Below, one piece after another: positions 1 to 16,022 of a stretch of DNA of 64,000 nt (the stretch's first letter is position 1; each line of letters opens with the position of its first letter). The notes beneath the pieces were generated by a model that saw nothing but the letters and a program-made list of their open reading frames with translations, did no database searches and was not told the origin of the DNA. Origin of the DNA: Listeria grayi DSM 20601 (lineage in GTDB: Bacteria; Bacillota; Bacilli; Lactobacillales; Listeriaceae); the NCBI RefSeq assembly GCF_000148995.1, contig NZ_GL538352.1:62001-126000 (forward strand), in the 5' to 3' direction. The position numbers were made by a program, and so were the translations under genes.

Positions 1-2
1 CG

Positions 3-50: not shown

Positions 51-53
51 AAA

Positions 54-78: not shown

Positions 79-120
79 AGACTGAAGAAAAATACCATTT
101 CAATCATTATTTTACTGTTT

Positions 121-242
121 TCAGCTTGGTGAAAAATGATTAGATTCTAGGCAAAGCCGAGTACCGAAGCGGAGCGTACTTGTGACGCGTGAATCGGAAC
201 GCAGGCTTTAACGACGAAGATGAGCGTTTTTCGCCAAGCTGA
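121..242. repeat. 122-bp structured palindromic element
   Basis: The outer ends are inverted repeats, TCAGCTTGG at 121-129 and CCAAGCTGA at 234-242, extended by GTGAAAAAT against GTTTTTCGC. Inside are nested pairs: AAAGCC (153-158) with GGCTTT (204-209), and AGTAC (160-164) with GTACT (176-180). This gives a branched cloverleaf-like fold. It has no open reading frame of note and is richer in G+C than its surroundings. It resembles a small palindromic intergenic (REP/MITE-like) repeat, though a structured RNA is possible. No second copy was seen in this window. Confidence 0.55.
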
Positions 243-274
243 GAAGCCAATCACTAAGATTGGCTTCTTTTTTT
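243..274 (+). terminator. Rho-independent terminator, second hairpin copy
   Basis: GAAGCCAATC/GATTGGCTTC stem with loop ACTAA followed by seven T residues. It repeats the 54-78 hairpin with one loop change (G to A). It abuts the 122-bp element and overlaps the stop codon of the opposing small membrane gene. Confidence 0.75.
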
Positions 275-569
275 ACCCTAAATAGAAATTGATTATAAAA
301 CCGATGAAGCAAGGAATTGCGGCGACCACGAAAGCAATACTAAAACGCAGCTGTTTCTTGCGTCCCTCCCGATTGTTCTGATAACGAGAACCGGTGGTGA
401 ATAATGCTGAAAAAATGATCGATCCGAAAATCAAGATCGTTGTTACTAAAGAAAATAGATTGGCGCCTATTTCTTTGGAAGTAAATAAACTGATCAAGAA
501 AATAACAATTGCTCCGCCTAATCCGGCTAAAAATGATTTTAAATACAACGGCTCAGTCACTCTTTTCAC
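273..569 (-). CDS. Small membrane protein of unknown function (98 aa)
   Basis: The protein has three predicted hydrophobic segments, at roughly residues 9-30, 36-58 and 75-96, joined by a basic loop containing NNREGRKKQ. That is typical of a small uncharacterised inner-membrane protein of Firmicutes. The start is the ATG at 567-569. It lies downstream of the purine permease on the same strand, with only 45 nt between the 3' end of the permease (615) and this start, so the two may be co-transcribed. I do not recognise a function; a DUF5316-like family is possible but unproven. Confidence 0.6.
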   Translation of the reverse strand: MKRVTEPLYLKSFLAGLGGAIVIFLISLFTSKEIGANLFSLVTTILIFGSIIFSALFTTGSRYQNNREGRKKQLRFSIAFVVAAIPCFIGFIINFYLG

Positions 570-614
570 ATAAAGTCTTACTTCCTTTATAGCAAAACTT
601 TCGGCGTTTGTCTA

Positions 615-1907
615 TTAATGCGGCAAGAAAGCCACAAGAATGAAGAAAAGAATCGCGATCACGATCAAGAAAGGATTGAGCTCACGCCATTTTCCTGTAA
701 AGACCTTCAAGACAGGGTAAGAAATGAAACCAAATGCCAGACCGATCGCAATGCTAGAAGTAAGTGGCATCGCTAGGATAACGAGGAATGCCGGAAAGGC
801 TTCATCTAAAGTATCCCAATCAATCTCTTTCACGGCACCGATCATCATGCTACCGACAACGATAAGCGCAGGAGCAGTGATCGCAGAGATTCCGGAGATC
901 GCCCCAACTAAAGGTGCAAAGAAGGCAGATACGATGAAAAGCATGGCTACAGTAAATGTAGTAAGCCCTGTACGTCCGCCAGTTTCAACGCCGGCTGACG
1001 ACTCGATATACGCGCTTGTCGGCGTAGTACCCAGCATAGAACCAACACTTGTAGCTACAGCATCAGCAAGAAGCGCTTGCTTAGCATTAGGTAATTTTTC
1101 GCCGCGCATCAATCCTGCACGTTTTGCCACTCCGATCATGGTTCCAGTTGTATCAAAAATCGTGATAAGTAGGAAGGAGAGGATCACGGCATACAGGCTG
1201 TGGCTGATAACATCTCCAAAAGCATGAATCGGATTGGTAAATACGAATTCCGGCATTGTCGGCATTTTTACAAAGCCGTTCGTAAATTTCAACGTACCAG
1301 TAAAGAAAGCAATGATTGCAGTAGCGATCATGCCAATGAAAAGTGCGCCTTTTACGCGCAATGCAAGGAAAATCAAAGTAATCGCTAGACCGATGATCGC
1401 AAGCAGTGCTTCTTGGGAATGCAGGTCACCCAGTCCTACTAAGTTAGAGGGGTTAGCAACAATGATACCAGTCATTCTAAAACCTAAGAAAGCAATGAAA
1501 AGACCGATTCCGGCGGTTATCCCTGCTTTTAGATTATGCGGGATGGCTTCGATCAATTTTTCCCGGAAAGGCGTTAATGAAAGTAATAAGAAAATAAGAC
1601 CAGCCACAAAGACAGCGGCAAATGCTACGGAATAGTCTAGTTTTTGCGTCGTTACGACAGTAACAAAATACGCATTCATTCCCAAACCAGGCGCGATCGC
1701 AATTGGATAGTTAGCGAATAATGCCATCCACAGCGTCCCGATCACAGCAGAAATGATCGTTGCCATAAACACAGTTTGAAAGGGGACATGCGCTGCGGAC
1801 AAGATCGCAGGGTTCACCACGATAATATAGACCATTGTTAAAAAGGTGGTAAAACCAGAGATTACTTCCGTTTTTACATCTGTACCAGCTTCTTTTAACC
1901 GAAACAT
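615..1907 (-). CDS. Purine permease, NCS2 AzgA-like (hypoxanthine/guanine type)
   Basis: A 430-residue, very hydrophobic protein with about 12-14 membrane spans, opening with FRLKEAGTDVKTEVISGFTT, the usual N-terminus of AzgA/PbuG/PbuO permeases. Other family motifs include GLGMNAYF near residue 75, FDTTGTMIGV near 250 and TPTSAYIESSAGVETGGRTG near 295. These permeases import purine bases with protons. The start ATG is preceded by AGGAG. The upstream region holds two facing PurR-type boxes, fitting purine-dependent control. Substrate (guanine/hypoxanthine versus adenine) cannot be settled from sequence alone. Confidence 0.93.
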   Translation of the reverse strand: MFRLKEAGTDVKTEVISGFTTFLTMVYIIVVNPAILSAAHVPFQTVFMATIISAVIGTLWMALFANYPIAIAPGLGMNAYFVTVVTTQKLDYSVAFAAVFVAGLIFLLLSLTPFREKLIEAIPHNLKAGITAGIGLFIAFLGFRMTGIIVANPSNLVGLGDLHSQEALLAIIGLAITLIFLALRVKGALFIGMIATAIIAFFTGTLKFTNGFVKMPTMPEFVFTNPIHAFGDVISHSLYAVILSFLLITIFDTTGTMIGVAKRAGLMRGEKLPNAKQALLADAVATSVGSMLGTTPTSAYIESSAGVETGGRTGLTTFTVAMLFIVSAFFAPLVGAISGISAITAPALIVVGSMMIGAVKEIDWDTLDEAFPAFLVILAMPLTSSIAIGLAFGFISYPVLKVFTGKWRELNPFLIVIAILFFILVAFLPH

Positions 1908-1926
1908 ATAGTTAACACTCCTTTAT

Positions 1927-1972
1927 AAATAACGAACAATTTAAAACCACAATATCAATAATATTCGTTTTT
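1927..1972 (-). promoter_or_regulatory. Paired PurR boxes upstream of the purine permease
   Basis: AAATAACGAACAAT on the plus strand (1927-1940) and AAAAACGAATATTA on the minus strand (1959-1972) are two divergently oriented matches to the PurBox core CGAAC, separated by 18 bp. Paired inverted PurBoxes about 16-17 bp apart are the known PurR arrangement in Bacillales. They lie 20-65 bp upstream of the permease start. Confidence 0.7.
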
Positions 1973-2005
1973 TAGTAAAAAAGCAAGCCTGTTTTGGTAA
2001 TTTCA

Positions 2006-3154
2006 TTAGAAAGAAAGATCCTCTAGCCGATCAAAGGCTTCTTTCAAAATCGGGATTGGCTGAGTGGCAGCGATCCGGACATAATTATCTCCGCTTTCGC
2101 CGAATGCCAATCCTGGGATCACCAGCACTTTTGTTTCTTTTAAGAGGTATTCGCTGAATGGAACAGAGCTCATCTGCGTGCGCGTGATATTAACAAACGC
2201 ATACATGGATCCTTTTACAGGATGGAGTGACAAATACGGAATCGCTGCGATACGCTCTGCGATATATTCCAAGCGTTTTTGGAATATAGCCGTCACTTGA
2301 GGTATTAATGTTTCTGCATGGTTCAACGCATAAATCGCTGCCCGTTGTGAGGGGGACGGTGCTGAATAGGTAATGCCTTCATTCAGTAGCTTGGCTGCCT
2401 CATTGATATAAGGTGGTGCGATCATGTAGCCGATCCGCCAGCCAGTCATGGCGAAATTTTTAGAGAGACTGCCTAGTAGAATCGTATGTTCCGGCGCAAA
2501 AGCAAGCATCGGAGTAAAATCACTGTAAAAGCTGAAGCCATCATAAACTTCATCGGAAATAATATAAAAATCGTATTTTTCCGCGAGTGCAGCGATCTTG
2601 GTAAATGCTTCTTTCGAAAATACCGCACCAGTTGGATTATTGGGGGAATTCAAGATAAATGCTTTGGTCTTAGGCGAAACAGCAGCTTCTAAAAGATCGA
2701 TATCGATCTCAAAACCATCTTTTTCATAAGTAGGAACGACAACGGGAACACCCTGTGATTGGATGATCTGTTCTTTATAAGGTGAAAAGAACGGTTCGTG
2801 CAGAATTACTTCGTCACCGGGATCAAGAATAACTTGCAATGCTAAATACATCGCATGAGAAGCGCCAACTGTGGCACGAACTTGATTGGCAGCTACTTCT
2901 AAATGATAGAATCGTTTGTAAAAATCGATCACAGCATTGATAAAAGTGATTTCTCCGCCAGATTCTGTATATTTGGTATGGCCGGCTTTTACATCTGCGA
3001 AAGCTGCTTCGATGATCGTCTTGTCTGTGATGATGTCGGGATCACCGATGGACAGATCCAGCAGATCCGGAGTCGTTTTGGCAAGTGTGCCGATGTTGGC
3101 AAGAATATTGACGGGTGTTCCTTGATGGCGTTTAGCGATGTTGGTACTGTTCAT
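2006..3154 (-). CDS. PLP-dependent aminotransferase, class I/II
   Basis: A fold-type I aminotransferase of about 382 residues. Visible landmarks are DLSIGDPD near residue 35, the cofactor-pocket stretch VGASHAMYLAL, NSPNNPTGAVF, ISDEVYDGFSF, and the PLP lysine in GSLSKNFAMTGWRIGY. The C-terminal FGESGDNYVRIA supplies the substrate-carboxylate arginine. I place the start at the ATG at 3152-3154 (MNSTNIAK) because AAGGAG overlaps an upstream in-frame GTG at 3164-3166. It lies just downstream of an amino-acid ABC transporter on the same strand, suggesting work on imported amino acids. The PatA/AspB-like subfamily is likely but substrate is unknown. Confidence 0.9.
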   Translation of the reverse strand: MNSTNIAKRHQGTPVNILANIGTLAKTTPDLLDLSIGDPDIITDKTIIEAAFADVKAGHTKYTESGGEITFINAVIDFYKRFYHLEVAANQVRATVGASHAMYLALQVILDPGDEVILHEPFFSPYKEQIIQSQGVPVVVPTYEKDGFEIDIDLLEAAVSPKTKAFILNSPNNPTGAVFSKEAFTKIAALAEKYDFYIISDEVYDGFSFYSDFTPMLAFAPEHTILLGSLSKNFAMTGWRIGYMIAPPYINEAAKLLNEGITYSAPSPSQRAAIYALNHAETLIPQVTAIFQKRLEYIAERIAAIPYLSLHPVKGSMYAFVNITRTQMSSVPFSEYLLKETKVLVIPGLAFGESGDNYVRIAATQPIPILKEAFDRLEDLSF

Positions 3155-3187
3155 TGTGTATTTCACTCCTTATGTTGGTAGATAGAT

Positions 3188-3225
3188 AAAAGGAAGGACC
3201 GTATCGTATGGTCACTTCCTTTTTT
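3188..3225 (-). terminator. Terminator after the amino-acid ABC ATPase gene
   Basis: AAGGAAG (3190-3196) pairs with CTTCCTT (3215-3221), the stem being extended by GACC/GGTC. T-runs follow on both strands. On the minus strand it ends the transporter transcript before the aminotransferase. Confidence 0.75.
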
Positions 3226-3229
3226 ATTG

Positions 3230-3955
3230 TTAGGCGAGTACTTTACTTAGGAAATTTTGTGCACGTTCGGATTTGGTATGATTAAATACTTCATCTGGAG
3301 TGCCTTCCTCTTGGATAACGCCGTCGTCCATAAAAATGACCCGGTCGGCTACTTCTTTAGCAAATCCCATTTCGTGTGTCACCACTACCATGGTCATGCC
3401 TTCTTTTGCTAGTTCTTTCATAACTGCCAATACTTCGCCGACCATTTCGGGGTCAAGGGCGGAAGTAGGTTCATCGAAAAGAAGGACATCGGGGTTCATT
3501 GCCAAAGCTCTGGCGATTGCCACACGCTGCTGCTGGCCGCCGGATAAACTGCTTGGATAATTATCAGCTTTATCAGCGAGACCAACTTTTGTCAGCAAAG
3601 CGAGTGCTTTTTCTTTTGCTTCTTTATCATTTGTTTTTTTAACTTTTAGTGGCGCTAATGTTAAATTTTCTAAAACAGTTTTATGTGGAAATAGATTAAA
3701 GTTTTGGAAAACCATGCCCATTTTTTGACGCAGCTCATTGATATCGGTGTTTTTGGCAAGTAAATCTTTTTCTTCAAAGCGGATCGTGCCTTTGGTTGGC
3801 TGTTCAAGCAGGTTCAAACATCTTAAAAAGGTGCTTTTCCCACTGCCGGAAGGGCCAATAACGACGATCACCTCACCAGTTTGGATATCTAAATCGATCC
3901 CTTTCAAAACCTCTAACTTACCAAAATATTTATGAAGATTGGAAACATTAATCAC
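3230..3955 (-). CDS. Polar amino-acid ABC transporter ATP-binding protein (GlnQ-like)
   Basis: A complete 241-residue ABC ATPase. Walker A is GPSGSGKST, followed by the Q-loop [11 protein letters not shown] typical of polar amino-acid importers. The signature is [15 protein letters not shown], Walker B is [14 protein letters not shown], and the H-loop is VVTHEMGF. It energises uptake by the fused binding-protein/permease encoded just upstream. The start is a GTG at 3953-3955 that overlaps the stop of that gene by 8 nt, with GGAG 12 nt upstream, so translation is probably coupled. The exact amino acid carried is not evident. Confidence 0.95.
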
Positions 3956-5411
3956 TAGTCTTCATTCTCCTTTCTGCAACCCCTAGTAATCTGGACAATC
4001 CGAATGTCAGTACAAAGTAGATAAGGGAAGTGATCACTAACGGAATAAACGGCTTGAAGCTGGCGCCTTGAACGACACCGGTCACGAACATCAGCTCGCC
4101 GACACCGATAACGGATACGATCGAGGATTCTTTGATAACCGAAACAAATTCATTCCCAAGCGCAGGAAGAATATTTTTAACTGCTTGCGGCAAGATAATA
4201 TAGCGCATGCTTGTTCCGCGAGTCATTCCCAGAGAACGAGCGGCTTCCATTTGTCCTTTGTTGACCGCTGAGATACCGGCACGAATGATCTCGGCAACAT
4301 AAGCAGCGCTATTTAGGGAAAGGGCGATACAACCGGATAAGAAGGCAGATAAGTTAAGGCCAAGTATCTGGGTACCGAAGAATACGATAGAAATTTGAAC
4401 AAGCAATGGTGTGCCGCGGACAAACTCGATATACCACGAAGCAGGCCAGCGCAGCCATCTTGTTTCAGAAAGTTTCATCAATGCCAATAGCGAACCGAGA
4501 ATCGATCCAAACAGCACGCCGACAATTGCTAAGAGAATGGTGTAAAGTGTTCCTTTCAGGAAGTAATCTTTGTATTTTTGGAAAAAACTTTCTTCTAAAA
4601 ACATTTGCTTGTTTGCCGTTGCTTGATATTTTTTCAATGCTCCAGAATCCTTGATATCTTTAATAGAAGCATTTACTTTATCCTGCAATGCAGTGGAGCC
4701 TTTTGGAAGGGCGATCGCAGTATCTTTTTGACCATTGGCGAATTTGACATTTTTTGCATAGGCAAGTGCTTTGTTTTGAGAAACATAGGCATCAGCCACA
4801 GGGCCTTCAAGTACAGCGGCATCGATTTTATTCGATGTAAGATTTAAGATAATATCGGGAACTTTTTGTAGAGACATTACGGTAGAGCCACTCAATTCGT
4901 TTTGGGCAAGTTCTTCTTGTGTCGTTTGTTTTTGAGCGCCGACTTTAACGCCTTGGAAGTCGCTGGTGGATTTGAATTTATTTTGATCCACTTTGCGGAC
5001 GATGACTTTCTGATCCACACGCATGTATGTATCAGAAAAATCTACTTCTTTTTCTCGTTCAGGAGTTGGCGACATCCCGGAGATGATCATATCGATCTTG
5101 CCGGTTTTTAAAGCACCGAGTAAACTTTCAAAATTCATTTCTGTAATAACCGGTTTTACTTTTAGATCTTTTGCGATTTTATCTGCAATACTGATATCAA
5201 AACCGACGATCTTATCTTTTCCTTTAATAGTTTGATGAAATTCATAGGGAGGGTAATCAGCAGATAGACCGACTCTTAATTCTCCGTTTTTCTGAATTTT
5301 TTTCAAATAAGGATCTGTTTCTGCGGCGGACGCAGCGTGGATCGAAGGGATGAGGAAGGTGAAAAAAATAGCGAGTGCAATAAATAATTTGGTTGATTTC
5401 CCTTTTGTCAT
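3948..5411 (-). CDS. Amino-acid ABC transporter, fused substrate-binding protein and permease (ArpJ-like)
   Basis: A 487-residue fusion. Residues 1-28 are a signal peptide ending ASAA. Residues about 35-265 form a family-3 binding domain ([47 protein letters not shown]). Residues about 275-487 form the membrane permease, with [10 protein letters not shown] and the EAA loop [34 protein letters not shown]. One polypeptide thus carries both capture and translocation, as in GlnP-type systems. In L. monocytogenes the similar gene is called arpJ. RBS GGAG lies 8 nt before the ATG. Together with the downstream ATPase it makes a complete importer. Confidence 0.92.
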
Positions 5412-5533
5412 AAAAATGCTCCTATCGTTTGTATTATCTTATTATAATACAACATAATGTTTAATTATTCAATAAAAGATTATAAAAATAATAATAACAT
5501 GTATAAAAAAGGATGTTTATACATAGAAATGAA

Positions 5534-5567
5534 TATAGAGCCGACCTTGGTAAGGGCCAGCTCTATA
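5534..5567 (-). terminator. Terminator-like hairpin after the 175-aa gene
   Basis: TATAGAGC (5534-5541) pairs with GCTCTATA (5560-5567), with additional pairing inside (CCTT/AAGG). The minus-strand tail is only moderately U-rich, so efficiency is uncertain. Confidence 0.55.
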
Positions 5568-5569
5568 GG

Positions 5570-6097
5570 CTAAAATTCTTCTTTGAGTAGTTTTTGAATA
5601 AAATAACAGAGAATAAATAAACTGACCGGCAAGGAAGGATCCTTGTCTGCCGTTTCGATCGAAATGAATTTTTTCATCTTATCATTCGTTTGATCGATTT
5701 TTGCAACTTCCTTATCATCCGCATAGATCACGAGTGGATCTTCTTTAGTGATTTGGGAGATTAGGATTTTTTTGCTAGAACCTTCCCACTCACCGGAAAT
5801 AGACAGCGCTTCCTCCATATTTCCTAGTTCTTCTTGGAAGGCGATCGTGCTACTGTCCTCCAAATTATGGAAAACAACGGTTGCGCCTTCTGTGCCAAGC
5901 CAGCCGATCTCAAGCGTGACAGAGGCATTTTCTGTGTTGTTGCTGGCATGATAGGTGTAAATATCCTGCTTTTTGGAAAATGCGATCTGTGTAGCTGCTT
6001 TGGTGATCTCGCCAATAACTTCTTCTTCATTGTTATAGATCGGAATAGGTTTCTTTTTTTGGAACATCAACGGTTTTTCAAAATAATAAATCCCCAT
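5570..6097 (-). CDS. Unknown protein, possible tubby C-terminal/LURP-like fold (175 aa)
   Basis: A soluble, acidic 175-residue protein opening MGIYYFEKPLMFQKKKPIPIY and then alternating short beta-strand-like segments (VIGEIT, VTLEIGWL, TVVFHN, KKILISQI, LVIYADDKEVAKI), ending with a hydrophobic helix LPVSLFILCYFIQKLL. This strand-rich layout with a last hydrophobic helix recalls tubby C-terminal/LURP-one-like proteins, but the call is tentative. The start ATG (6095-6097) has GAGGGG 7 nt upstream. It is the last minus-strand gene of the block with the IbrA/IbrB pair; the 85-nt gap before it leaves co-transcription open. Confidence 0.5.
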   Translation of the reverse strand: MGIYYFEKPLMFQKKKPIPIYNNEEEVIGEITKAATQIAFSKKQDIYTYHASNNTENASVTLEIGWLGTEGATVVFHNLEDSSTIAFQEELGNMEEALSISGEWEGSSKKILISQITKEDPLVIYADDKEVAKIDQTNDKMKKFISIETADKDPSLPVSLFILCYFIQKLLKEEF

Positions 6098-6182
6098 TTA
6101 TTGACCCCTCTTTCTATGTAACACGGTATAAGGAACTTTTCCCTAATCACAAAGTGAAAAACAGCACAATGAGAGGAAGAGA

Positions 6183-6611
6183 TCAAAACTTGTAAGCCCG
6201 CTGTTTCCAGTCATCGGAACGCTTTAGGAAAATATAGTTGGCTGTTTCTTTATATACCTCGAATCCCTTGTTAAGAAAGAAGGTGTGTTGGTGCGTATCG
6301 TTTTTCCTGATATCCGTGTAAAGGGTATAGCTAGCTTCGTTCTTGATCGTTCGTAGCGTCAGGTTGGCGATCTTTGTCCAGTGCGCTTCATCTATACCGT
6401 AAATCTCGCCGATCTCGATTCCTCTTCGACCGTTTTCGAAGGAGGAGAAAGCACAGACTTGTGTTCCTTGTTTGCCGATCAGCCAGGTTTTATCCTGTGT
6501 ATTGACAAGATAGGGAAAGAGTTTCTGCCAAACGCGCTCTGCGAAATAGGGCGCCATGTATTGATAAAAGATTTTTTTGTTATAGGGGGGAGCAAAGATT
6601 ATCGTTTCCAA
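6183..6611 (-). CDS. GNAT-like acetyltransferase domain protein (142 aa)
   Basis: Small protein whose C-terminal half reads like the last strands of a GNAT fold: YTLYTDIRKNDTHQHTFFLNKGFEVYKETANYIFLKR (given in pieces: the FLNKGFEVY element at about residues 112-120 is the usual 'Y.k.GF' end of GNATs). The middle part WLIGKQGTQVCAFSSFENG could be strands 2-3. No clear acetyl-CoA Q/RxxGxG/A loop is visible, so activity is doubtful. It starts at a TTG (6609-6611) with AAGGG upstream and lies 18 nt after the IbrB-like gene, so it appears to be the third gene of that operon. Confidence 0.5.
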   Translation of the reverse strand: METIIFAPPYNKKIFYQYMAPYFAERVWQKLFPYLVNTQDKTWLIGKQGTQVCAFSSFENGRRGIEIGEIYGIDEAHWTKIANLTLRTIKNEASYTLYTDIRKNDTHQHTFFLNKGFEVYKETANYIFLKRSDDWKQRAYKF

Positions 6612-6629
6612 AGTTTCACATCCCTTTTC

Positions 6630-7157
6630 TTAGCTGTAGTAACGTTCTTCAAATTCTTCCCAGGAGTCGGAAAAATCGTGATTAGCGAAGATGTCTTTTA
6701 AAAAAGTATTTTGTTTCAGACGAATGACTTCTTCTTTATCCATTCCGAGATTGAGAGCGATCTCGGATTCATCCCAACCGGAGCGGATCAGCATTTCGAT
6801 TATATTCGACATGCCTTCGATACTGTGTGTTCCCCGTGCGCGGTTATGCCGGATCGTGCTTGCCATACGATGAGCAAGCGATTTGTCGATGACAGTGACA
6901 GGAACCTCTTTTAGCTGAAGTCGTCTTCGGGCCAAGAAAAATCGGTGATAGCCGTCGACGATCTTATATCTGTCGATTTTAGGGATATAATAACAGACGA
7001 TCGGTTGTGTAAAGCCATCCTCGCGAATCGATCGCTCCAGCAGTGCGAGTTCTGGAGTTGCAACTTTGTTGGGATTATAGCCGTTTTCATCGACTTTATC
7101 GATTGGCACCATTTTTACATTTAGAACGGGAAAAGTGATTTTACTCTGCATTGTCAT
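6630..7157 (-). CDS. ibrB: IbrB-like ParB/sulfiredoxin-fold protein
   Basis: A protein of about 175 residues. The N-terminal part is a ParB-type nuclease/NTP-binding domain: VPIDKVDENGYNPNKV, LLERSIREDGFTQPIVCY, and the hallmark VDGYHRFFLAR near residue 70. A helical stretch follows (RARGTHSIEGMSNIIEMLIRSGWDESEIALNLGMDKEEVIRL) resembling the ParB helix-turn-helix. The start is the ATG at 7155-7157 with GGTGG just upstream, 10 nt after the IbrA-like stop; a longer frame running back into the upstream gene is not needed. ParB proteins with this pairing are called IbrB. Its biochemical role is not established. Confidence 0.85.
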   Translation of the reverse strand: MTMQSKITFPVLNVKMVPIDKVDENGYNPNKVATPELALLERSIREDGFTQPIVCYYIPKIDRYKIVDGYHRFFLARRRLQLKEVPVTVIDKSLAHRMASTIRHNRARGTHSIEGMSNIIEMLIRSGWDESEIALNLGMDKEEVIRLKQNTFLKDIFANHDFSDSWEEFEERYYS

Positions 7158-7167
7158 GTGGACCACC

Positions 7168-8445
7168 TTATTTAGAAGTTTCGCGTTGCATTTTGTTGAT
7201 GATAGATTGGTAAATCTTTCCATTGAGGGCTTCGATACCTAGCTGACCGTGAAATTCATCATATAGTTGATAAAGTTCCTGTTCATCTTTTTTCGTCAGG
7301 CTATATTGCCTTGTCGTCAGGGCAAAATCGTTTTTTTCAAGGACGCGGGCGAGACTTTTCCAATTATGCCATAAGCGCTCGTCTTTTTTCCATTCACGCT
7401 GTTTGGCTTCATCTACCATATCGCAAACATCCATGTCGTATTTCTTCTTATAGTAATTCATTAGGATCTTAAATTTACGATGGTAATGGTCGCGCAGCTT
7501 TTCGCTGTAAAAACCATAGCTTTCTAGCAGAAAGACAGTATACTGCTGCCAAGTCATATGGAGCGGTTTTTTTGTTTTCGCATAGCCGAGCAGATGTGTT
7601 TTAGAATACAGACTACCGAAATTAGCACCGCTTACACGATTGACGATCTTTTCCCATAAGTGCGGTTCCAGTGCGGCAAATTGTTTGAGGCCAATGCGCT
7701 GCTGTAGACCATAAGGCTGACAGATACGCATGTGCTTGAAAGGGATCCCATTTTTATACATCTGATCGTAAATGTGATTATACTCCCAGTCGAAACAGGA
7801 GATTGCTTTCCAAATATCTTCAAACTTCCAGTCGAAAATCGGATAGAATTTATAATAGCCATCTTTGGAACGGTTGATCCATTGTTTGCCGCGGTATTTA
7901 TTGATCCCGTTCTGAATCGCATTATAACGCATCAGGCTCTCTTGGGTGCGTAAACCGATCCCGCATGCGATCGTAGAATCGGCGTGGATCTCTTGATACC
8001 ATTTCCCGAATTTTTTTAAAAAGATGTCTGGATTACCGTGGCTGCGATTGAAATAATATAATAGCCGTTCATCTAATTTATCCAATGTTATCGCATCCTG
8101 TGGTAGAGGATGGATCCAACGTTCTTTTTCCCGCGGATTCCACATGATCCATTGCGGCTGCAAGATACTGGAATAGTTATCTTCATAAAACGGCAGACAA
8201 AAATGGTAAACCGTTCCCACAGTGGGCAATTGTTTACAGCGTTCTAAAAATATAACGGTTTCTGTATAGTTTGCTTCGATATCCAAAATCACGATATCGA
8301 ATGTGCGGTTCATTTTCTGGGCGATCTGATTAGCTAGATAGACCATGATACCACTATCTTTACCGCCGCTCACTGAAAAATAAACGTGCTCAAATTCTTG
8401 AAATATGTAACGCATTCTTGCTTGGGCAGCTTCCAGTACATTCAT
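7168..8445 (-). CDS. ibrA: IbrA-like PAPS-reductase-family PP-loop ATPase (DUF3440)
   Basis: A 425-residue protein with the PP-loop SGGKDSGIMVYLANQ at residues about 25-40, and the second family block CGIGLRTQESLMRYNA near 165-180, as in PAPS reductases, DndC and sulfurtransferases. The long C-terminal half (FYPIFDWKFEDIWKAI, MRICQPYGLQQRIGLKQF, FGSLYSKTHLLGY) matches the IbrA/DUF3440 type rather than true CysH; the CysH C-terminal CxxC cluster is not seen. PP-loop enzymes adenylate substrates before adding sulfur or nitrogen. RBS GGAG precedes the ATG. No sulfate-assimilation genes are nearby; the partner is the ParB-fold protein just downstream. Confidence 0.88.
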   Translation of the reverse strand: MNVLEAAQARMRYIFQEFEHVYFSVSGGKDSGIMVYLANQIAQKMNRTFDIVILDIEANYTETVIFLERCKQLPTVGTVYHFCLPFYEDNYSSILQPQWIMWNPREKERWIHPLPQDAITLDKLDERLLYYFNRSHGNPDIFLKKFGKWYQEIHADSTIACGIGLRTQESLMRYNAIQNGINKYRGKQWINRSKDGYYKFYPIFDWKFEDIWKAISCFDWEYNHIYDQMYKNGIPFKHMRICQPYGLQQRIGLKQFAALEPHLWEKIVNRVSGANFGSLYSKTHLLGYAKTKKPLHMTWQQYTVFLLESYGFYSEKLRDHYHRKFKILMNYYKKKYDMDVCDMVDEAKQREWKKDERLWHNWKSLARVLEKNDFALTTRQYSLTKKDEQELYQLYDEFHGQLGIEALNGKIYQSIINKMQRETSK

Positions 8446-8547
8446 TAAGTATCACTCCTAGCCCAGTTATATTAAGTATTATTATGAACATATCATACTA
8501 TTATTGAGTGGGATAATCAAGCAAGGGCAAGAAAGGAAAAGCCTAAT

Positions 8548-8576
8548 AAAAAAGCCTCGCAGCAGGTGCGAAGCCG
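8548..8576 (-). terminator. Terminator after the phosphate transporter gene
   Basis: GCCTCGCA (8554-8561) pairs with TGCGAAGCC (8567-8575) and, read on the minus strand, is followed by a run of six U. It sits just downstream of the Pit stop codon. Confidence 0.8.
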
Positions 8577-8581
8577 TTGTT

Positions 8582-9583
8582 TTATGATAAAAATAAATGA
8601 AGCAGGAAGTAAAGCGCACCTGCAAATAATGCAGAAATCGGTAGTGTGATGATCCAAGTGATCACCATTCGCTGTGCAGTATCCCATTTAACACCTTTGA
8701 CACGATGTGATGTACCTACCCCTAAGATAGAAGAGCTGATAACATGGGTCGTGCTGACAGGCAAGTGGATAAATGTGGCTCCGAATATGATGATAACGGA
8801 ACTCAAGTCAGCTGCTACACCATTGACTGGCTTGATCTTCATGATCTTTCCACCAACAGTTTGGATGATCTTCCAGCCACCGATACTTGTACCGATCGCC
8901 ATTGCCAAGGCACAACTCACTTGAACCCAAAGCTGAACGTCGTCTCCAGTTTGGAAACCATTAGCGATCAAGGCAAGTGTGATGATACCCATTGATTTTT
9001 GAGCATCATTCGTACCGTGCGTGTAGGATTGCAACGCAGCGGTAAAGACTTGGATGTAACGGAAATTACGGTTTGTTGAAGCTAAATTTAGATTTTTTAA
9101 TGTTAATTTGAATATCGTATAAATCAAGTACCCAACTGCAAAAGCAATGAAAGGAGAAGCGATCAGTCCAACGATGATCGTTAGGAACCCACTGTATTCA
9201 ATGGAACCGAAGCCAGCAGCGGCAATAGCTGCACCAGCGATCGAGCCGATCAGGGCGTGCGAGGAACTGCTTGGGATACCGAAGTACCAAGTCAGCAAGT
9301 TCCATGCGATTGCTGAAAGAAGTGCGGCCAACAAGACGATCTCGCCATGTGGCAGTCGAAATGGATCAACGATATCTTTTGTGATCGTTTTGGCAACCCC
9401 TGTAAAAGAAACTGCCCCTATGAAGTTCATTGTAGCCGCCATAACGATAGCGTGACGCGGCTTTAAGGCTTTTGTCGAAACACTTGTCGCAATGGCATTT
9501 GCAGTATCATGAAAACCGTTTATGAGGTCAAATGTTAACGCTGCAAGAACAATAACAACGGTAATTAGTAACATACTCTCCAT
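8582..9583 (-). CDS. pit: Inorganic phosphate transporter, PiT family
   Basis: A 333-residue membrane protein with the two Pit repeat signatures: FDLINGFHDTANAIATSVST near residue 20 and the C-terminal partner SVIIIFGATFIHLPVSTTHVISSSILGVG. The central YTHGTNDAQKSMGIITLAL is also diagnostic. These low-affinity carriers import phosphate, usually as a metal-phosphate with protons. It follows the PhoU-like gene by 11 nt on the same strand, the common DUF47-pit operon. The length is that of the short bacterial Pit form. Confidence 0.95.
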   Translation of the reverse strand: MESMLLITVVIVLAALTFDLINGFHDTANAIATSVSTKALKPRHAIVMAATMNFIGAVSFTGVAKTITKDIVDPFRLPHGEIVLLAALLSAIAWNLLTWYFGIPSSSSHALIGSIAGAAIAAAGFGSIEYSGFLTIIVGLIASPFIAFAVGYLIYTIFKLTLKNLNLASTNRNFRYIQVFTAALQSYTHGTNDAQKSMGIITLALIANGFQTGDDVQLWVQVSCALAMAIGTSIGGWKIIQTVGGKIMKIKPVNGVAADLSSVIIIFGATFIHLPVSTTHVISSSILGVGTSHRVKGVKWDTAQRMVITWIITLPISALFAGALYFLLHLFLS

Positions 9584-9594
9584 TATCTAGCTCC

Positions 9595-10215
9595 TTATGC
9601 ATTTTTCATGACAATCGATTCAAGTGTATTTGCTACACTTTGACAACTGTCTGCAATGTCTTCTAGGTTTTGATAAACTTCTTTGTGACGGATCAAGCGG
9701 ATTGGATCTTGTTCGCGTTTGAACAGTTCAATCAATGCTTCACGATAAACTTCATCACAGTGAGATTCATAATCTTTGATTTTAATAGCAAGTTTGCGTA
9801 CGTCTTTTAATTTTTTGTCGAATACTAGATCCACAGCTCTTTCGATTTCAACCGTGCTGCTTTGGATAGCTTCGATCAATTTGACCATGTAGTCGTCGTA
9901 ATGAGTGATTTGGCAAATTTCAAGTGAGAAAGCAGTTTCTTCCAGACCGTCCATGATATCATCCAGACGATTGGTAAGCTCAAGCATATCTTCTCGTTCG
10001 ATAGGAGTGATAAATGCGTCGTTCAGTTCCATAATAATTTTATGGACCATTGTATCACCAGTGGTTTCGTATTCTTTGATTTTATCAGAAAATATATGAA
10101 GGTCATCTATAGAATTGATATTGAAAGAAGCGAAAAAATTAGCACCTTCCCGTAAATTAACAGCAATATCATGTAGCAATGAAGCAAAACGATCCTTTTT
10201 ATTTTTAAAAGCCAT
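9595..10215 (-). CDS. PhoU-like DUF47 protein, partner of Pit
   Basis: An all-helical protein of 206 residues (MAFKNKKDRFASLLHDIAVNL...), with metal-binding-like acidic motifs EREDMLELTNRLDDIMDGLEE and IKDYESHCDEVYREAL that recur in PhoU-family proteins. DUF47 proteins are thought to modulate the adjacent Pit carrier at the membrane. I start it at the ATG at 10213-10215, which has GGAGG 10 nt upstream; an earlier frame opening exists but lacks a better ribosome site. It lies 11 nt upstream of pit and is surely co-transcribed. Confidence 0.9.
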   Translation of the reverse strand: MAFKNKKDRFASLLHDIAVNLREGANFFASFNINSIDDLHIFSDKIKEYETTGDTMVHKIIMELNDAFITPIEREDMLELTNRLDDIMDGLEETAFSLEICQITHYDDYMVKLIEAIQSSTVEIERAVDLVFDKKLKDVRKLAIKIKDYESHCDEVYREALIELFKREQDPIRLIRHKEVYQNLEDIADSCQSVANTLESIVMKNA

Positions 10216-10416
10216 TTCTGAAATTTCCTCCGATCTTTTTTGATACATAAGTTTGGACCAAACAGGAGAAATAGAGCGTCCGTTCGGCGTTTTTTTATGT
10301 ATAAAATGTTTACAAGAATATAAAAATTTTAAGGTTGAAATTTACCACAAATTAATACTAACATAGGATGATATTAAATAAAAACTCTTTTTTGATAATT
10401 TAATAAAGAAATAATA

Positions 10417-10432
10417 TAGTAAGCGTTATCAT
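10417..10432 (+). promoter_or_regulatory. Candidate CcpA cre site
   Basis: TAGTAAGCGTTATCAT matches the cre consensus WTGNNARCGNWWWCAW at all but one fixed position. It lies in the 359-bp divergent region between the PhoU-Pit operon and the aldo/keto reductase gene, about 140 bp from the latter. The rest of this region is AT-rich with a TATAAT at 10518-10523 that may serve the reductase; nothing else is obvious in it. Confidence 0.5.
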
Positions 10433-10574
10433 TTTGATTTTCCTCCGATTTTTATAAAAATAATAAAAACTGGTTTTTTTATTAGGAGAGTGCATGATTT
10501 TTCGGTATACTGGGTAGTATAATTATTCCACTAAGAACTGGATATAAAAGTCAAACGATCGGGAGGTTTTAAAA

Positions 10575-11453
10575 GTGACCAAAACACTAGAAAGTCGCTT
10601 TGTGTTACCTGATGGTGCCCGTATGCCTTATATAGGTTTAGGCTTATTCAAATTAAATGAACAAGAGTTGCTCCGAGATGCGATCAGTGAAGCTGCTGCG
10701 ATCGGATACCGGCTATTTGATACAGCAGCTGTTTATAATAATGAACAGCTGATCGGCGAAGAACTGCGCGCCAGTAATGTTCCGCGGGAAGAGCTGTTTT
10801 TGAGCACCAAGATCTGGAATGGCGATCTCGGATATGACAGCACGCTTCGTGCTGTAGAGCGAACGCTGACGAACTTGAAAATGGATTATCTGGATCTTTA
10901 CTCGATCCACTGGCCAATCGCCGGCAAATACCGCGACACATGGCTGGCTTTAGAACGTCTCAAAGAAGAAAAAGTCGTACGCTCGATCGGCGTTGCGAAT
11001 TTCAAACAATATCATCTCGATGATCTGTTGACTGTCGCAAATGAAAAGCCAGTCATCAATCAGATTGAAACGCATCCGCTTTTGCCGCAAAATGAATTGC
11101 GTGCTTATATGGCAAAGCTCGGGATCGCCCATGGTGCCTGGTCGCCGCTTGCTAAAGGCGCATTGATGCAGGATAAACTGATCGACAAGATCGCGGAAAA
11201 GCATGGCGCACAAGTAGATCAAGTCGTACTACAGTGGCATCTCAACCGCAATACGATCATTTTTCCGAAATCGATCAATCCAAAACGCTTGAAAGAAAAT
11301 GCAGAACTTTCGTATTTCCACTTGGACAGCCATGATATGGAACGGCTAGATAAATTAGCTGGGGATGTTCGTGTAGGACCTGATCCTGATGATCTGGCGT
11401 ATTTTGTGACAAGCATAGAGCGTGAAAGGGAAGAATTGGCGAATAGAGAATAG
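10575..11453 (+). CDS. Aldo/keto reductase
   Basis: A 292-residue (alpha/beta)8-barrel NADPH-dependent oxidoreductase. The catalytic tetrad can be read: Asp and Tyr in FDTAAVYNNE (about 48-57), Lys in STKIWN (about 78), and His in YSIHWPIAGKY (about 112). The cofactor-binding end is FPKSINPKRLKENAE. Such enzymes reduce aldehydes and 2,5-diketo acids. Start is GTG with GGGAGG 9 nt upstream. It stands alone upstream of the CorA-like gene; a possible CcpA site lies further upstream. The natural substrate cannot be told. Confidence 0.92.
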   Translation: MTKTLESRFVLPDGARMPYIGLGLFKLNEQELLRDAISEAAAIGYRLFDTAAVYNNEQLIGEELRASNVPREELFLSTKIWNGDLGYDSTLRAVERTLTNLKMDYLDLYSIHWPIAGKYRDTWLALERLKEEKVVRSIGVANFKQYHLDDLLTVANEKPVINQIETHPLLPQNELRAYMAKLGIAHGAWSPLAKGALMQDKLIDKIAEKHGAQVDQVVLQWHLNRNTIIFPKSINPKRLKENAELSYFHLDSHDMERLDKLAGDVRVGPDPDDLAYFVTSIEREREELANRE

Positions 11454-11457
11454 ATTG

Positions 11458-11486
11458 GTCGCGTGAGCTGACAAGGTTCACGCGGA
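11458..11486 (+). other. Hairpin between aldo/keto reductase and CorA-like genes
   Basis: CGCGTGA and TCACGCG form a 7-bp stem with an 11-nt loop, in the 68-nt gap. There is no T-run behind it, so it is more likely an RNA-stability or partial-termination hairpin than a full terminator. Confidence 0.45.
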
Positions 11487-11521
11487 CTTAATCAAAACAG
11501 TAAAAGCTAGCAGGAGGAACT

Positions 11522-12427
11522 ATGGATATAAGAGAAACATTCAATGCGGAAACGAATAAATGGATCGATATCGACGCTTCCAACGGCGAGGATCTCTCCA
11601 AACTAAATCAAGTCTACGGCATCGATGAAGAGATCATCGGCTACTCGCTGGATAGAAATGAGCGGGCGCATGTCGAATACGATGAAGATACGGGCGTGTT
11701 CTTCTTGATTTATCACGCACCTAATCTCGATGAAACTGGCGATAACTATGAGACCTTTCCGTTCACTTTTATTGTTAAAGATAATTATTTGATCACAATA
11801 AGCAGTAAACATACGAAATATATCACCACCATGATGGAAAAATACTTACATAACCATCATGAAGAATCACTTTTTCACTTTCTTTTTAAAAGTTTATTCC
11901 TGATCACAGCGGCTTTCTTTCCGTTAGTGGAAAAAATGGATATCAACCGGAAGCGTATCAATGATAAATTAAGAGAAAAAACGACAAAAGAAAACTTGCT
12001 GGGATTATCTGATTTAGAAACAGGGATCGTATATTTGGTTTCCGCCTCGAAGCAAAACACGATGCTGCTTGAACAAATCAAGGCGCAGGCCTTTTATCGA
12101 AAGCTGACAGAATTCGAGAAAGAACAGCTCGATGATGCATTGATCGAAGCGCGGCAATTACTTGAGATGACTCAGCTCTCTTCACAGATCCTCCAGCAGC
12201 TTTCAGGCACCTATAATAATGTCTTAAATAATAATTTGAATGACACGATGAAAATCTTGACTGTCTTATCCGTTCTGCTGACATTGCCAACGATCATTAC
12301 CGGCTTTTTCGGAATGAATATGCCACTTCCGCTCGAACACAATCGAATGGGCTGGATCATTAGCATCGGAATCAGCTTAGTGAGCTGGTTCATATTATCT
12401 TTTATTTTACGCAGAAGAATGCGATAA
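11522..12427 (+). CDS. corA: CorA-family divalent cation channel
   Basis: A 301-residue protein with a soluble N-terminal domain (residues 1-235) rich in acidic and helical segments, followed by two transmembrane helices at about 240-262 and 275-297. The pore signature GMN is present in GFFGMNMPLPLEHN. CorA proteins are pentameric channels for Mg2+ and sometimes Co2+/Ni2+ in the cytoplasmic membrane. RBS AGGAGG lies 6 nt before the ATG. The C-terminus ends in the basic RRRMR usual after helix 2. Whether it carries Mg2+ or another metal is open. Confidence 0.92.
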   Translation: MDIRETFNAETNKWIDIDASNGEDLSKLNQVYGIDEEIIGYSLDRNERAHVEYDEDTGVFFLIYHAPNLDETGDNYETFPFTFIVKDNYLITISSKHTKYITTMMEKYLHNHHEESLFHFLFKSLFLITAAFFPLVEKMDINRKRINDKLREKTTKENLLGLSDLETGIVYLVSASKQNTMLLEQIKAQAFYRKLTEFEKEQLDDALIEARQLLEMTQLSSQILQQLSGTYNNVLNNNLNDTMKILTVLSVLLTLPTIITGFFGMNMPLPLEHNRMGWIISIGISLVSWFILSFILRRRMR

Positions 12428-12463
12428 AAAAGCGCAGCCTCTTTATGAGGTTACGCTTTTTTT
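12426..12463. terminator. Bidirectional terminator between convergent genes
   Basis: AAAAGCG.AGCCTC / GAGGTTaCGCTTTTTTT stem with A and T runs on both sides, placed between the CorA-like gene (plus) and the pseudouridine synthase gene (minus). It overlaps the last codons of the latter. Confidence 0.85.
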
Positions 12464-13335
12464 AATCGGAAAGAATCATCTGGAGGTTGCTCCCACTTAA
12501 GCGTGTTATCTAAAAACGGATGATAGGTTTCCAATTGTTTAGCATGGAGCAACAGCCGCGCGGCACGATTTGAGCCGCCGTAAAGCGAATCCCCGATGAT
12601 CGGGAAACCAGCATCACTCAGATGAACACGAATTTGATGGGTACGTCCGGTATCTAGCCGGCATTCGAGGAGCGTATTATTCTGCGCTTGATGGCGGGCA
12701 AGAATGGCTACATGCGTCACTGCTGTTTGACCGCCGGGGCTCACGCGTCGTTTGTTCGGGTGGTGACGATCACTGCTGATGGGCTTGCGAATAGTGAAAT
12801 TAGCCGGTCCCTTCCAGATATTGTCCGTGATTGCCAGATAATGCCGGTGGATGGTCCGCTGTTCTAACTGATAGGAAAACGCAGCCAGGGCGATCGCATT
12901 TTTAGCAAATAAAAGCAAGCCGCTAGTGGCTTCATCCAAACGGTGGACAGGGGATGCACTTGCACCAGATTGACCTGTTGCATTTAAATAAGCTTGGACA
13001 CGCTGCTGACAGCTATCTATTTCGCTGGAATCATTGGGATGTGTTTTTAAATTCGCCGGTTTATTGGCAACGAGGATAAAATCATCTTCATAGACGATAT
13101 CGATCGGACGGTCAGCAGATGTGACGACAGCTTTTTCGAGCAGCGGCAATACTAATAGATCCCCGGCATGAAGTGGCCTGCGCCAATCCGTCAGCTGTTC
13201 GTTATTCAACTGCACGTCATGCGACATACGCAAAGTATGGCGCGCTTTTTTTCCTAAATGAAAATGATCGCGCAGCAAGGTTTCTGCATTTATGTTATCC
13301 CAAGCCGAAAGTATCGGGATTTTTAAATTCATCAT
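12451..13335 (-). CDS. RluA-family pseudouridine synthase (RluD-like)
   Basis: A 294-residue enzyme that isomerises uridine to pseudouridine in rRNA or tRNA. The catalytic aspartate is in VHRLDEATSGLLLFAKN at about residue 132. Other family blocks are VLVANKPANLKTHP (here LVANKPANLKTHPND), TVTHVAILA and CRLDTGRTHQIRVHLSDAGFPIIGDSLYGG. The N-terminal 80 residues look like a degenerate S4-type RNA-binding region (LLRDHFHLGKKARHTLR). RBS GAGGAG is upstream of tandem ATGs. The RNA target cannot be assigned from sequence. Confidence 0.92.
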   Translation of the reverse strand: MMNLKIPILSAWDNINAETLLRDHFHLGKKARHTLRMSHDVQLNNEQLTDWRRPLHAGDLLVLPLLEKAVVTSADRPIDIVYEDDFILVANKPANLKTHPNDSSEIDSCQQRVQAYLNATGQSGASASPVHRLDEATSGLLLFAKNAIALAAFSYQLEQRTIHRHYLAITDNIWKGPANFTIRKPISSDRHHPNKRRVSPGGQTAVTHVAILARHQAQNNTLLECRLDTGRTHQIRVHLSDAGFPIIGDSLYGGSNRAARLLLHAKQLETYHPFLDNTLKWEQPPDDSFRLKKA

Positions 13336-13356
13336 TTTAGCATGCTCCTCTTTATT

Positions 13357-13809
13357 TTATTTGGTAGAAAGGCGCTTGATAGAGGGGATCAGCAGGTAGC
13401 GGCAGAGAATATCTGCTGTAACAAGTCCGACTGCTAAACCGACCGCTGCATAGCCGACATTTAAAAAGACGAATCCGGCTGCAGAATAATCGCCCAGCAA
13501 CAGTGTACGGAAAGCATCATAAAAAGTGATTCCCGGAACTACTGGTACTAAACCAGGGACGAAATAGACAGTCAGCGGCATTTTGAAGCGGTGTGCAGCA
13601 ATTTGAGCAGCGACTGCGAGCAAGAGGGAACAGACTAGACTTGCTAAAAAGACGCCGTAGCCATGCTTTGTCATTTCAAAATAGCCGATCCAGCCAATCA
13701 TACCAATGATTCCGCTAGTGAAAATCGCTTTTTTAGGAACATTGCATAATACTGCAAACGTGACGGAAGAAATGAAACTGAAAAATAAGTGATATGCGAT
13801 TTCGCCCAT
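13357..13809 (-). CDS. Threonine/serine exporter subunit, ThrE_2 (DUF3815) type
   Basis: A 150-residue membrane protein with four or five helices. Characteristic pieces are FTSGIIGMIGWIGYF, AAHRFKMPLTVYFVPGLVPVVPGITFYDAFRTLLLGDY and the last helix VGLAVGLVTADIL. The VPG(L/I)VPxVPG motif recurs in the partner gene, reflecting the shared ThrE fold. I use the ATG at 13807-13809 (MGEIAYHLFF), which lies after the stop of the upstream partner; a longer frame overlaps that gene and has no good ribosome site. The pair forms a split ThrE-type amino-acid exporter. Confidence 0.85.
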   Translation of the reverse strand: MGEIAYHLFFSFISSVTFAVLCNVPKKAIFTSGIIGMIGWIGYFEMTKHGYGVFLASLVCSLLLAVAAQIAAHRFKMPLTVYFVPGLVPVVPGITFYDAFRTLLLGDYSAAGFVFLNVGYAAVGLAVGLVTADILCRYLLIPSIKRLSTK

Positions 13810-13831
13810 GTGCTTTCCAATCCTCTCTTTG

Positions 13832-14599
13832 CTAAATAATAAATAAATAGTAGACCACTGCGATTCCTGCACCAAGTGAAGCTGCAATCGCAAGTCCTTC
13901 GACCGTTCGGATCATGCCTGACAAATAATGTCTTGCCATAATATCACGGATGGCGTTGGTGATCGTGATTCCTGGAACGAGCGGCACGACAGCGCCGATC
14001 ATTACTAAGCTGGTATGAATACCGATGAAATGTAAAAGTAAATAACCGGTCATCCCACCAACGAATGTTCCACAAAATTCCGCTAAAAAAGGAATGTTCA
14101 ATAATTTAGAAATCAGTACATAAATAGCAAAAGAAACCACTCCAGCAATCATCGAAGCAGGCAGATCAACAAAACTGCCCCCAAAGATCAATACGATACT
14201 GCCACTCAATCCAGCAGTACAAATATATTTCTTCCATAATTGAATCGATGCTTTTTCCGCCTCGACCTTTTTCAAAGCTTGATACAATTCGATCAGCGTG
14301 ATGTGTTGCAGTGCGAAATCGCGTGATAGCTGGTTGACCTGCGTGATCTTGTTGAGATCATAATCCCGATTATCGATCCGTAAAAAATCTGTACCGAAAT
14401 CTTCTAGTTTTACGAAAATGCCATTCAGCGTCACATACGTGTATTTGCTGGATTTTGCCGGGTCATTCAAAGCGATCCGAATGATTCGCTCCATCGTATC
14501 TTCCGTACGGCTGATCTCAGCACCGTTCTCGACAAGCAACTTACCTGCCAGAAGGCTGACAGCGGCAATCATTTTATTTGTATTTACAACTTCTTCCAT
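13832..14599 (-). CDS. Threonine/serine exporter subunit, ThrE (DUF1212) type
   Basis: A 255-residue protein. The soluble N-terminal half carries the family signature LLVENGAEISRTEDTMERI near residue 25 and FVKLEDFGTDFLRIDNRDYDL. The C-terminal half has about five membrane helices, including the VPLVPGITITNAIRD block that parallels the ThrE_2 partner. Together they correspond to the two halves of corynebacterial ThrE, which exports threonine and serine. The downstream partner gene follows after 22 nt, so the two are an operon. Confidence 0.87.
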   Translation of the reverse strand: MEEVVNTNKMIAAVSLLAGKLLVENGAEISRTEDTMERIIRIALNDPAKSSKYTYVTLNGIFVKLEDFGTDFLRIDNRDYDLNKITQVNQLSRDFALQHITLIELYQALKKVEAEKASIQLWKKYICTAGLSGSIVLIFGGSFVDLPASMIAGVVSFAIYVLISKLLNIPFLAEFCGTFVGGMTGYLLLHFIGIHTSLVMIGAVVPLVPGITITNAIRDIMARHYLSGMIRTVEGLAIAASLGAGIAVVYYLFII

Positions 14600-14666
14600 T
14601 CATTTTCGCCTCGATTCTCCATTACAAATCATATCATCTTTTTTACAAAAAGGGAGTAGGGAAAAT

Positions 14667-16016: not shown

Positions 16017-16022
16017 TAGTTA

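Follow-up and report, generated by a model that had tools for sequence, protein, structure and literature searches.

We analysed a 64,000-nucleotide stretch of the Listeria grayi DSM 20601 genome (contig NZ_GL538352.1, positions 62,001–126,000; hereafter the window), in which three minus-strand genes lie side by side at 6183–8445 (Table 1). They encode an IbrA-like PP-loop ATPase, an IbrB-like ParB/sulfiredoxin-fold protein and a small GNAT-fold protein; we call them together the trio, and the last of them the third gene. The open reading frame list placed the ibrB start at 7223, overlapping ibrA. Because an AAGGTGG ribosome site precedes the ATG at 7157 and the Listeria farberi homologue has its start at nearly the same position, the listed start probably lies too far upstream, and we prefer the one at 7157, which gives a protein of 175 residues. 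With this correction, 10 nucleotides (nt) separate the ibrA stop from the ibrB start and the third gene begins 18 nt after ibrB, which upholds the tight array described in the first-pass annotation of the window. Promoter-like sites, one of which precedes ibrA, are hardly in excess (13 observed versus 9.0 in shuffled sequences, standard deviation 2.7).

Table 1. Features of the trio and of the flanking interval (window coordinates).
Feature	Position	Strand	Description
ibrA-like gene	7168..8445	(-)	425-residue PP-loop ATPase of the PAPS-reductase superfamily with DUF3440 region; SGGKDS at residues 26-31
ibrB-like gene	6630..7157	(-)	175-residue ParB/sulfiredoxin-fold protein; VDGYHR and RHNRARGTH
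Third gene	6183..6611	(-)	142 residues, TTG start; GNAT-fold protein without the R/Q-x-x-G-x-G/A acetyl-CoA loop
Sigma-70-like promoter, 5' of ibrA	8492..8520	(-)	TTGATT-17-TATGAT, 9/12; consensus match only
Terminator-like hairpin after pit, just upstream of the trio	8553..8575	(-)	Consensus match only
Tubby-like gene, flanking	5570..6097	(-)	Also between pit and arpJ in 9/24 other genus genomes
pit-like phosphate permease gene, flanking	8582..9583	(-)	Matched in 25/25 genus genomes
arpJ-like amino-acid transporter gene, other flank of the interval	3948..5411	(-)	

The window IbrA scores above the Pfam cut-offs for DUF3440 (PF11922; E = 3.1e-24, 86.1 bits against 25, over 127 of 182 positions only) and PAPS_reduct (PF01507; E = 1.8e-10, 41.6 bits against 22.5), and it matches the phage family phrog_2302 (E = 5.5e-75). 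With its intact SGGKDS PP-loop and the adjacent ParB-like gene, it belongs to IbrA, as the first-pass annotation had proposed. Among 110 distinct IbrA sequences, G29, K30, D31, S32, R167, E170, S171 and R174 are present in all, making the GKDS and RxxES..R motifs invariant, and S25 and S27 are present in 109 (alignment numbering, which runs one above that of the protein). No cysteine is conserved in at least 90% of these sequences: C84, which is C83 of the protein, occurs in 91 and C243, which is C242, in 85, and cysteine patterns vary between clades. Since no cysteine reaches this level, the pattern argues against sulfur chemistry and would fit adenylylation instead.

A structure model of IbrA (confidence score pLDDT 84.1, pTM 0.68) has PAPS reductases as its nearest matches by E-value; the PAPS domain of human FAD synthase also matches, from rank 15 on, with low root-mean-square deviation. 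By sequence profile, both FAD synthase and CysD match as well, and these two enzymes transfer adenylyl groups. Against the CysH model IbrA scores only 28.7 bits (cut-off 154), and against the DndC model 15.3 bits (cut-off 290.4), so that we reject DndC identity on family score and sulfate metabolism on family scores and cysteines together. PADLOC returned a weak DndC match for IbrA (E = 1.4e-4) and no match for the third gene. Because the window IbrA is the sole PAPS_reduct match in its own genome at E = 0.001, there is no separate CysH; the absence of sulfate-assimilation genes to which the first-pass annotation had pointed stands for CysH, the other genes of that pathway not having been searched for. 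IbrA is thus no ordinary sulfate reductase, again as anticipated. At E = 1e-5, relatives of the window IbrA occur in 214 phage records, seven of which match over 80% of the protein, and in 596 plasmid records.

IbrB, previously read as a ParB/sulfiredoxin-fold protein with VDGYHR, matches ParB_N (E = 1e-10) and the phage family phrog_2159 (E = 1.9e-64). Its DGxHR motif (D93, G94, H96, R97) is present in 102 of 102 sequences, and the RHNRARG motif that follows is kept nearly throughout; the window protein has the ParB_N domain and both motifs in this order, and so belongs to IbrB. IbrB is present in 76 of 80 viral IbrA loci, these being the best 80 of at least 576 relatives.

By sequence alone, the third protein gave only a weak GNAT match (Acetyltransf_18, E = 0.15). 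An AlphaFold2 model built with ten sequences shows a GNAT fold (mean pLDDT 90.4), and a Foldseek search with it returned 219 Protein Data Bank chains at E = 0.001 or better; the 50 matches listed can all be recognised as GNAT-fold proteins; most are acetyltransferases and a few are acyl-homoserine-lactone synthases, which belong to the same fold. Given the fold model and these relatives, we assign the protein to the GNAT fold at the level of predicted structure. The family carries an N-terminal signature, FYxxMGxYFAE...PYLxN...W, in which F15, Y16 and W43 are constant across a 17-row alignment.

The acetyl-CoA loop of GNAT enzymes, R/Q-x-x-G-x-G/A between strand 4 and helix 3, behaves differently. 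It is recognisable in 8 of the 17 rows (L060, L065, L073, L092, L104, L133, L051 and L162), typical only in L060 (RNQGIG), and missing in the other nine (the window, L022, L158–L161, L081, L068 and G101), which include seven of the eight rows from cellular genomes. Where L060 has RNQGIG, the window protein has GIDEAHW. The 'GNAT-like' label of the first-pass annotation therefore stands for the fold and not for the activity: with the loop absent, the window protein is probably not an acetyltransferase. Retention of the N-terminal signature alongside loss of the loop suggests that the third protein may serve as an adaptor.

The third gene had been flagged as a possible extra component, and a search for its neighbours bears this out. 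We built a first model from four sequences (the window, L. farberi, Paenibacillus larvae and genome G101) and applied it to 295 genomes of the order, where a threshold of E = 1e-5 yielded 14 places, spread over 13 genomes. The seven strong matches (E = 1.1e-20 or lower, in six genomes) all lie directly beside IbrA; two of them, the window and L. farberi, are rows of the model and five are independent. Around the seven weak matches (E = 8e-7 to 1e-5) no IbrA lies within 1.5 kb, and we regard them as ordinary GNATs. Since the strong homologues lie beside IbrA, the third gene cannot be dismissed as a chance reading frame. Searched against 398 genomes of the class, the window protein matched its own genome, G101 (E = 3e-17) and, weakly, G370, with no IbrA in view there. 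In G101 a single 572-residue frame joins the third protein to the end of IbrA, and IbrB follows; the fusion (L163, 5446–7179) is preceded by genes for an SNF2-type helicase and a zinc-finger-like protein, in a genome of the same class as that of the window.

The partnership extends to plasmids and viruses. Among 72,556 plasmid records, the sole match to the third gene is on a P. larvae plasmid, where it lies between IbrA and IbrB and adjoins the best plasmid IbrA match, whereas no match was found at E = 0.1 in 50,697 phage records. In viral contigs the third gene was found in L060 and, with the first model, in 7 of the 80 IbrA loci, 5–72 nt from IbrA; a wider model added locus L063 (41 bits). 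A GNAT gene of Halomontanus in L052 was not accepted as the same gene, aligning poorly, and was left out of the models. Gene order varies: IbrA–IbrB–third in the window and L022, IbrA–third–IbrB in most loci, third–IbrA–IbrB in L073 and L081, and the IbrA-third fusion followed by IbrB in G101.

For a tree, the 110 IbrA sequences were thinned to 74 and labelled for the third gene with the wider model, which was trained partly on the same loci; the window falls in a well-supported clade of five whose members all have the third gene. The trait requires 11 changes on this tree against 15.5 in shuffles; values as low were reached in 0 of 500 shuffles for the group with the gene and in 1 of 500 for the group without. 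From these change counts, the partnership is clustered yet has been gained or lost repeatedly. We found no description of the third gene in the open-access literature searched, so that the three-part IbrA–IbrB–GNAT variant is apparently undescribed, its protein families being known. Two related loci have further neighbours. Genes resembling Thoeris ThsA and ThsB are found about 5 kb from a decayed trio in G928 (L161), the ThsA-like frame running off the stretch seen, and in G1008 (L160) a gene for a PIN_8-domain protein (Pfam) lies downstream of the trio, with a frame similar by eye downstream in L161.

Comparison of the pit–arpJ interval across the genus identifies the trio as an insertion. 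In 24 other genus genomes the interval holds pit, a tubby-like gene and arpJ in 9, and pit adjoins arpJ in 14; in the remaining genome arpJ lies beyond the 1.5 kb seen, leaving the interval complete in 23 of 24. Neither IbrA, IbrB nor the third gene was seen at this site in any of the 24 (23 complete). The first-pass annotation had placed the two flanking genes side by side in L. monocytogenes and had proposed a probable insertion; adjoining pit and arpJ genes without the block are borne out in related genomes, as is the insertion. Because no other genus genome has the trio in this interval, it is an insertion between pit and the tubby-like gene in this lineage; the alternative, loss from the site in all other genomes, is less simple. 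One correction applies: the tubby-like gene, which 9 of 24 other genomes also have between pit and arpJ, was there earlier and does not belong to the insertion. This gene is fast-changing, with 28–40% identity to its counterparts between pit and arpJ.

The GC content of the trio (0.41–0.44) does not set it apart from its three neighbours (0.40–0.44), and with third-position GC at 0.46–0.54 in the trio, highest in the third gene, versus 0.40–0.44 in the neighbours, a compositional signal of transfer is weak at best. Only imperfect, chance-like repeats were found in 5400–9700, and no tRNA gene was found in window positions 1–20000.

The block is far from universal in the genus. Across 36 genomes of the family, the third gene occurs only in the window's own genome and in G005 (2/36), apart from an extra weak match (E = 0.001) in the own genome in a different setting. 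A search of genome contigs with IbrA found a single relative, L. farberi, and the only trio among the 24 other genus genomes is that of L. farberi FSL L7-0091 (L022, G005), at another site: at 954–4709 of L022, directly after acetyltransferase-like and glycosyltransferase-like genes (identified by eye) and at the end of a 7.4-kb contig. A divergent IbrA–IbrB pair lies at yet another site, beside an SNF2-like gene, in 17 of the 24 other genus genomes, and from genus, families and the SNF2-like neighbour we take these pairs to be of the lmo1309/lmo1310 type. IbrA–IbrB as such is therefore not rare in Listeria; the window-type trio is. On contig 58 of G005 (L018/L021) the lmo1310-type IbrA is split into two frames, and the same genome has an open window-type trio.

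Fuller loci elsewhere place IbrA–IbrB in two distinct settings. An SNF2-type helicase gene lies upstream of IbrA on the P. larvae plasmid, in G101, in 20 of 80 viral loci and in all 17 lmo1310-type loci. A single sequence (L051) underlies the SNF2 model, Pfam confirms the domain for L051 and L204 only, and several matches are weak (43–114 bits in viral loci, 35–50 in lmo1310-type loci); a published table that lists lmo1309/1310 also names lmo1311 as an SNF2 protein (available text of PMC5736727). On the P. larvae plasmid and in G101, the SNF2-type gene is preceded by one whose product has CGH and CxxC motifs and, judged by eye, resembles a zinc-finger protein; it was detected in 11 of 80 viral loci. 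Its L051 representative (2422–3606) matches no PADLOC or NCBIfam family, and gave a weak Pfam SAVED match (E = 0.023) and a match to one phage family of unknown function.

In the second setting, type IV-B csf genes accompany IbrA–IbrB, together with a cysH-like gene, in eight loci (L052, L053, L060, L066, L071, L072, L079 and L173), comprising 4 of the 80 viral loci, L060 and three haloarchaeal plasmids. PADLOC identified Csf1, Cas11, Csf2 and Csf3 in L060 and the same set in L052, with Cas11 weak there (E = 3e-4); the calls in L066, L071, L072, L079 and L173 rest on models from L060, L052 and L053. On the 99.6-kb viral contig L060, csf1-cas11-csf2-csf3-IbrA-GNAT-IbrB-cysH-like lie in one run (16–5649), the csf operon being complete-looking. 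No viral locus seen combines the SNF2-type and csf settings. Type IV-B operons with a CysH-like gene are known from archaeal viruses (PMC10848311, available text), and IbrA/IbrB from an archaeal virus (PMC8813620, available text). We found no report linking IbrA/IbrB or ParB to type IV-B in the open-access literature searched, which lacks many papers.

The trio shares components with several known systems. The IbrA/IbrB pair of Escherichia coli ECOR-9 and of phages (phrog_2302 and phrog_2159) comprises the same two families in the same order, and in a comparison with the protein of Escherichia phage PhiR5_2 the window IbrA is 32.9% identical over 95%. The window adds the GNAT-fold gene, none being found beside the PhiR5_2 pair, and its IbrA belongs to another clade. 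The lmo1309/lmo1310 pair (IbrB/IbrA) of Listeria sensu stricto, named after PMC5736727 as far as its text is available, shares the families and the genus, but differs in chromosomal site, IbrA clade and in having an SNF2-like neighbour instead of the third gene. The cysH-like gene of type IV-B systems (CasCysH) encodes a PP-loop protein lacking a catalytic cysteine, for which AMPylation of nucleic acid has been proposed on that ground (PMC8175902, available text), and in this respect resembles IbrA as read here; the window is no such system, having neither csf genes nor a second cysH-like gene. In Dnd (DndC PP-loop, DndB ParB-like) and Dpd (DpdB ParB-like), as in IbrA–IbrB, a PP-loop or base-exchange enzyme is joined by a ParB-fold protein, and in the accessible parts of PMC10853773 and PMC12839542 such proteins act side by side in DNA modification. 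The window differs from Dnd in that IbrA falls far under the DndC cut-off and the neighbours, judged by eye, are transporter and housekeeping genes; Dnd models were run on four proteins of the locus only.

Our preferred reading, tentative and a little short of an even chance, is that the trio is a horizontally acquired three-subunit IbrA–IbrB–GNAT module most likely acting on nucleic acid, with the third protein as an adaptor of IbrA. Recurrence of the gene beside IbrA in bacteria, on a plasmid and in viruses suggests a mobile-element machine that modifies or controls nucleic acids, and we infer a nucleic-acid-modifying or regulatory role for the trio. IbrA would bind ATP at SGGKDS and, with its substrate held by the invariant RxxES..R motif, would transfer AMP to, or use ATP alpha-hydrolysis on, a nucleic-acid or nucleotide substrate, no sulfur being moved. 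IbrB, as a nucleotide-binding ParB/sulfiredoxin-fold protein, could load the complex onto nucleic acid or license it there; comparable roles have been suggested, in differing forms, for DndB and DpdB. The third protein would be bound to IbrA, its conserved N-terminal FYxxMGxYFAE...PYLxN...W face persisting even in copies that, like the window's, have lost the acetyl-CoA loop, and the presumed outcome would be that DNA or RNA of the mobile element or the host is marked or regulated. In the fuller loci, an SNF2-type helicase or a type IV-B Csf complex may deliver IbrA–IbrB to its target; the window copy would be the stand-alone form.

Several observations weigh against this reading. A search of 290 genomes of the order gave 27 IbrA places at E = 1e-40, spread over 25 genomes; the third gene accompanies 7 of these places and is absent from 20, namely the 17 lmo1310-type loci and G852, G887 and G1000, and even the wider model leaves it undetected in 72 of 80 viral loci; given these absences, it is not essential to IbrA–IbrB. 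The first-model scores of L068 (21 bits) and L133 (27 bits) are within reach of generic GNATs (22–36 bits with the wider model), and both proteins have the FYxxMG signature. The window IbrA retains both C83 and C242, as most members keep the two sites, and sulfur chemistry in a subset of IbrA is possible on this pattern. Since helicase, csf and second cysH-like genes are all missing from the window locus, function read from fuller loci may not transfer. No csf match was found anywhere in the 64-kb window with models from three loci, and an SNF2 partner elsewhere in the own genome is not supported, the sole match having 27% identity in a 1071-residue frame; the related trios in G980 and G1008 also stand alone within the stretches seen. 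Of six csf2 plasmid records examined among 60, those of Thermococcus, Rhodococcus and Frondihabitans have no IbrA–IbrB within 8 kb, and of the three that do, two were first found through IbrA; the link to type IV-B is thus optional. Finally, in E. coli, deletion of ybdO derepresses ybdNM, an IbrA/IbrB-like pair, and raises several cys sulfur genes among many others (PMC9068703, available text), and activation of prophage eib genes has been reported for IbrAB (Sandt et al. 2002, cited in PMC6008420, available text).

The last of these findings, for which the proteins are named, underlies the main rival by our analysis, a transcription co-activator pair in which IbrB binds DNA and IbrA tunes it through a nucleotide, switching on prophage or surface genes with the third protein as a regulator subunit. 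IbrA/IbrB are annotated as co-activators of prophage gene expression, and a ParB-like IbrB fits such a role; co-activation alone would not account for the invariance of GKDS and RxxES..R or for the repeated finding of SNF2-like and type IV-B genes next to the pair, and we consider it unlikely.

Defence of an abortive or toxin–antitoxin kind, in which IbrA would adenylylate or deplete a nucleotide or tRNA on infection under restraint by IbrB, seems to us quite improbable. The listing of lmo1309/1310 as a putative toxin–antitoxin pair by neighbourhood (PMC7020466, available text) and the decayed trio near Thoeris-like genes in G928 speak for it; the PADLOC results do not, and the many phages that carry IbrA relatives would be unusual for anti-phage suicide. 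That wide presence in phages points to benefit for mobile elements rather than to defence. We give still less credence to an active acyltransferase within a trio that modifies small molecules or proteins and has no connection with nucleic acid: it would accord with the GNAT fold, the typical loop of L060 and the recognisable loop in seven other rows, but most cellular copies, including the window's, have lost the loop while retaining the N-terminal signature. A sulfate-assimilation or sulfonucleotide enzyme is scarcely credible, since the PAPS reductase fold, the Pfam match and the rise of cys genes with ybdNM derepression, itself confounded by many other changes, are set against the low CysH score, the lack of a universal cysteine or of another PAPS_reduct gene in the genome, and the near-constant company of IbrB in viral loci.

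A broader form of the preferred nucleic-acid reading, which strikes us as rather unlikely in full, would make IbrA–IbrB, with or without the GNAT subunit, a general nucleic-acid-adenylylating effector cassette of mobile elements, plugged into SNF2-type helicases in many phages and plasmids or into the type IV-B CRISPR ribonucleoprotein, with the window as a stand-alone case in which the GNAT subunit is a pure adaptor. If true, IbrA–IbrB would supply the effector of that ribonucleoprotein. IbrA relatives are widespread on mobile elements, and we found no settled chemistry for them; their neighbours, the third subunit and its fusion to IbrA now give a testable hypothesis, that of a PP-loop enzyme without a universal cysteine, adenylylating or otherwise acting on nucleic acid. 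For type IV-B CRISPR systems, the function of which is described as open (PMC8175902, available text), they also suggest IbrA–IbrB as a candidate partner in a subset of cases.

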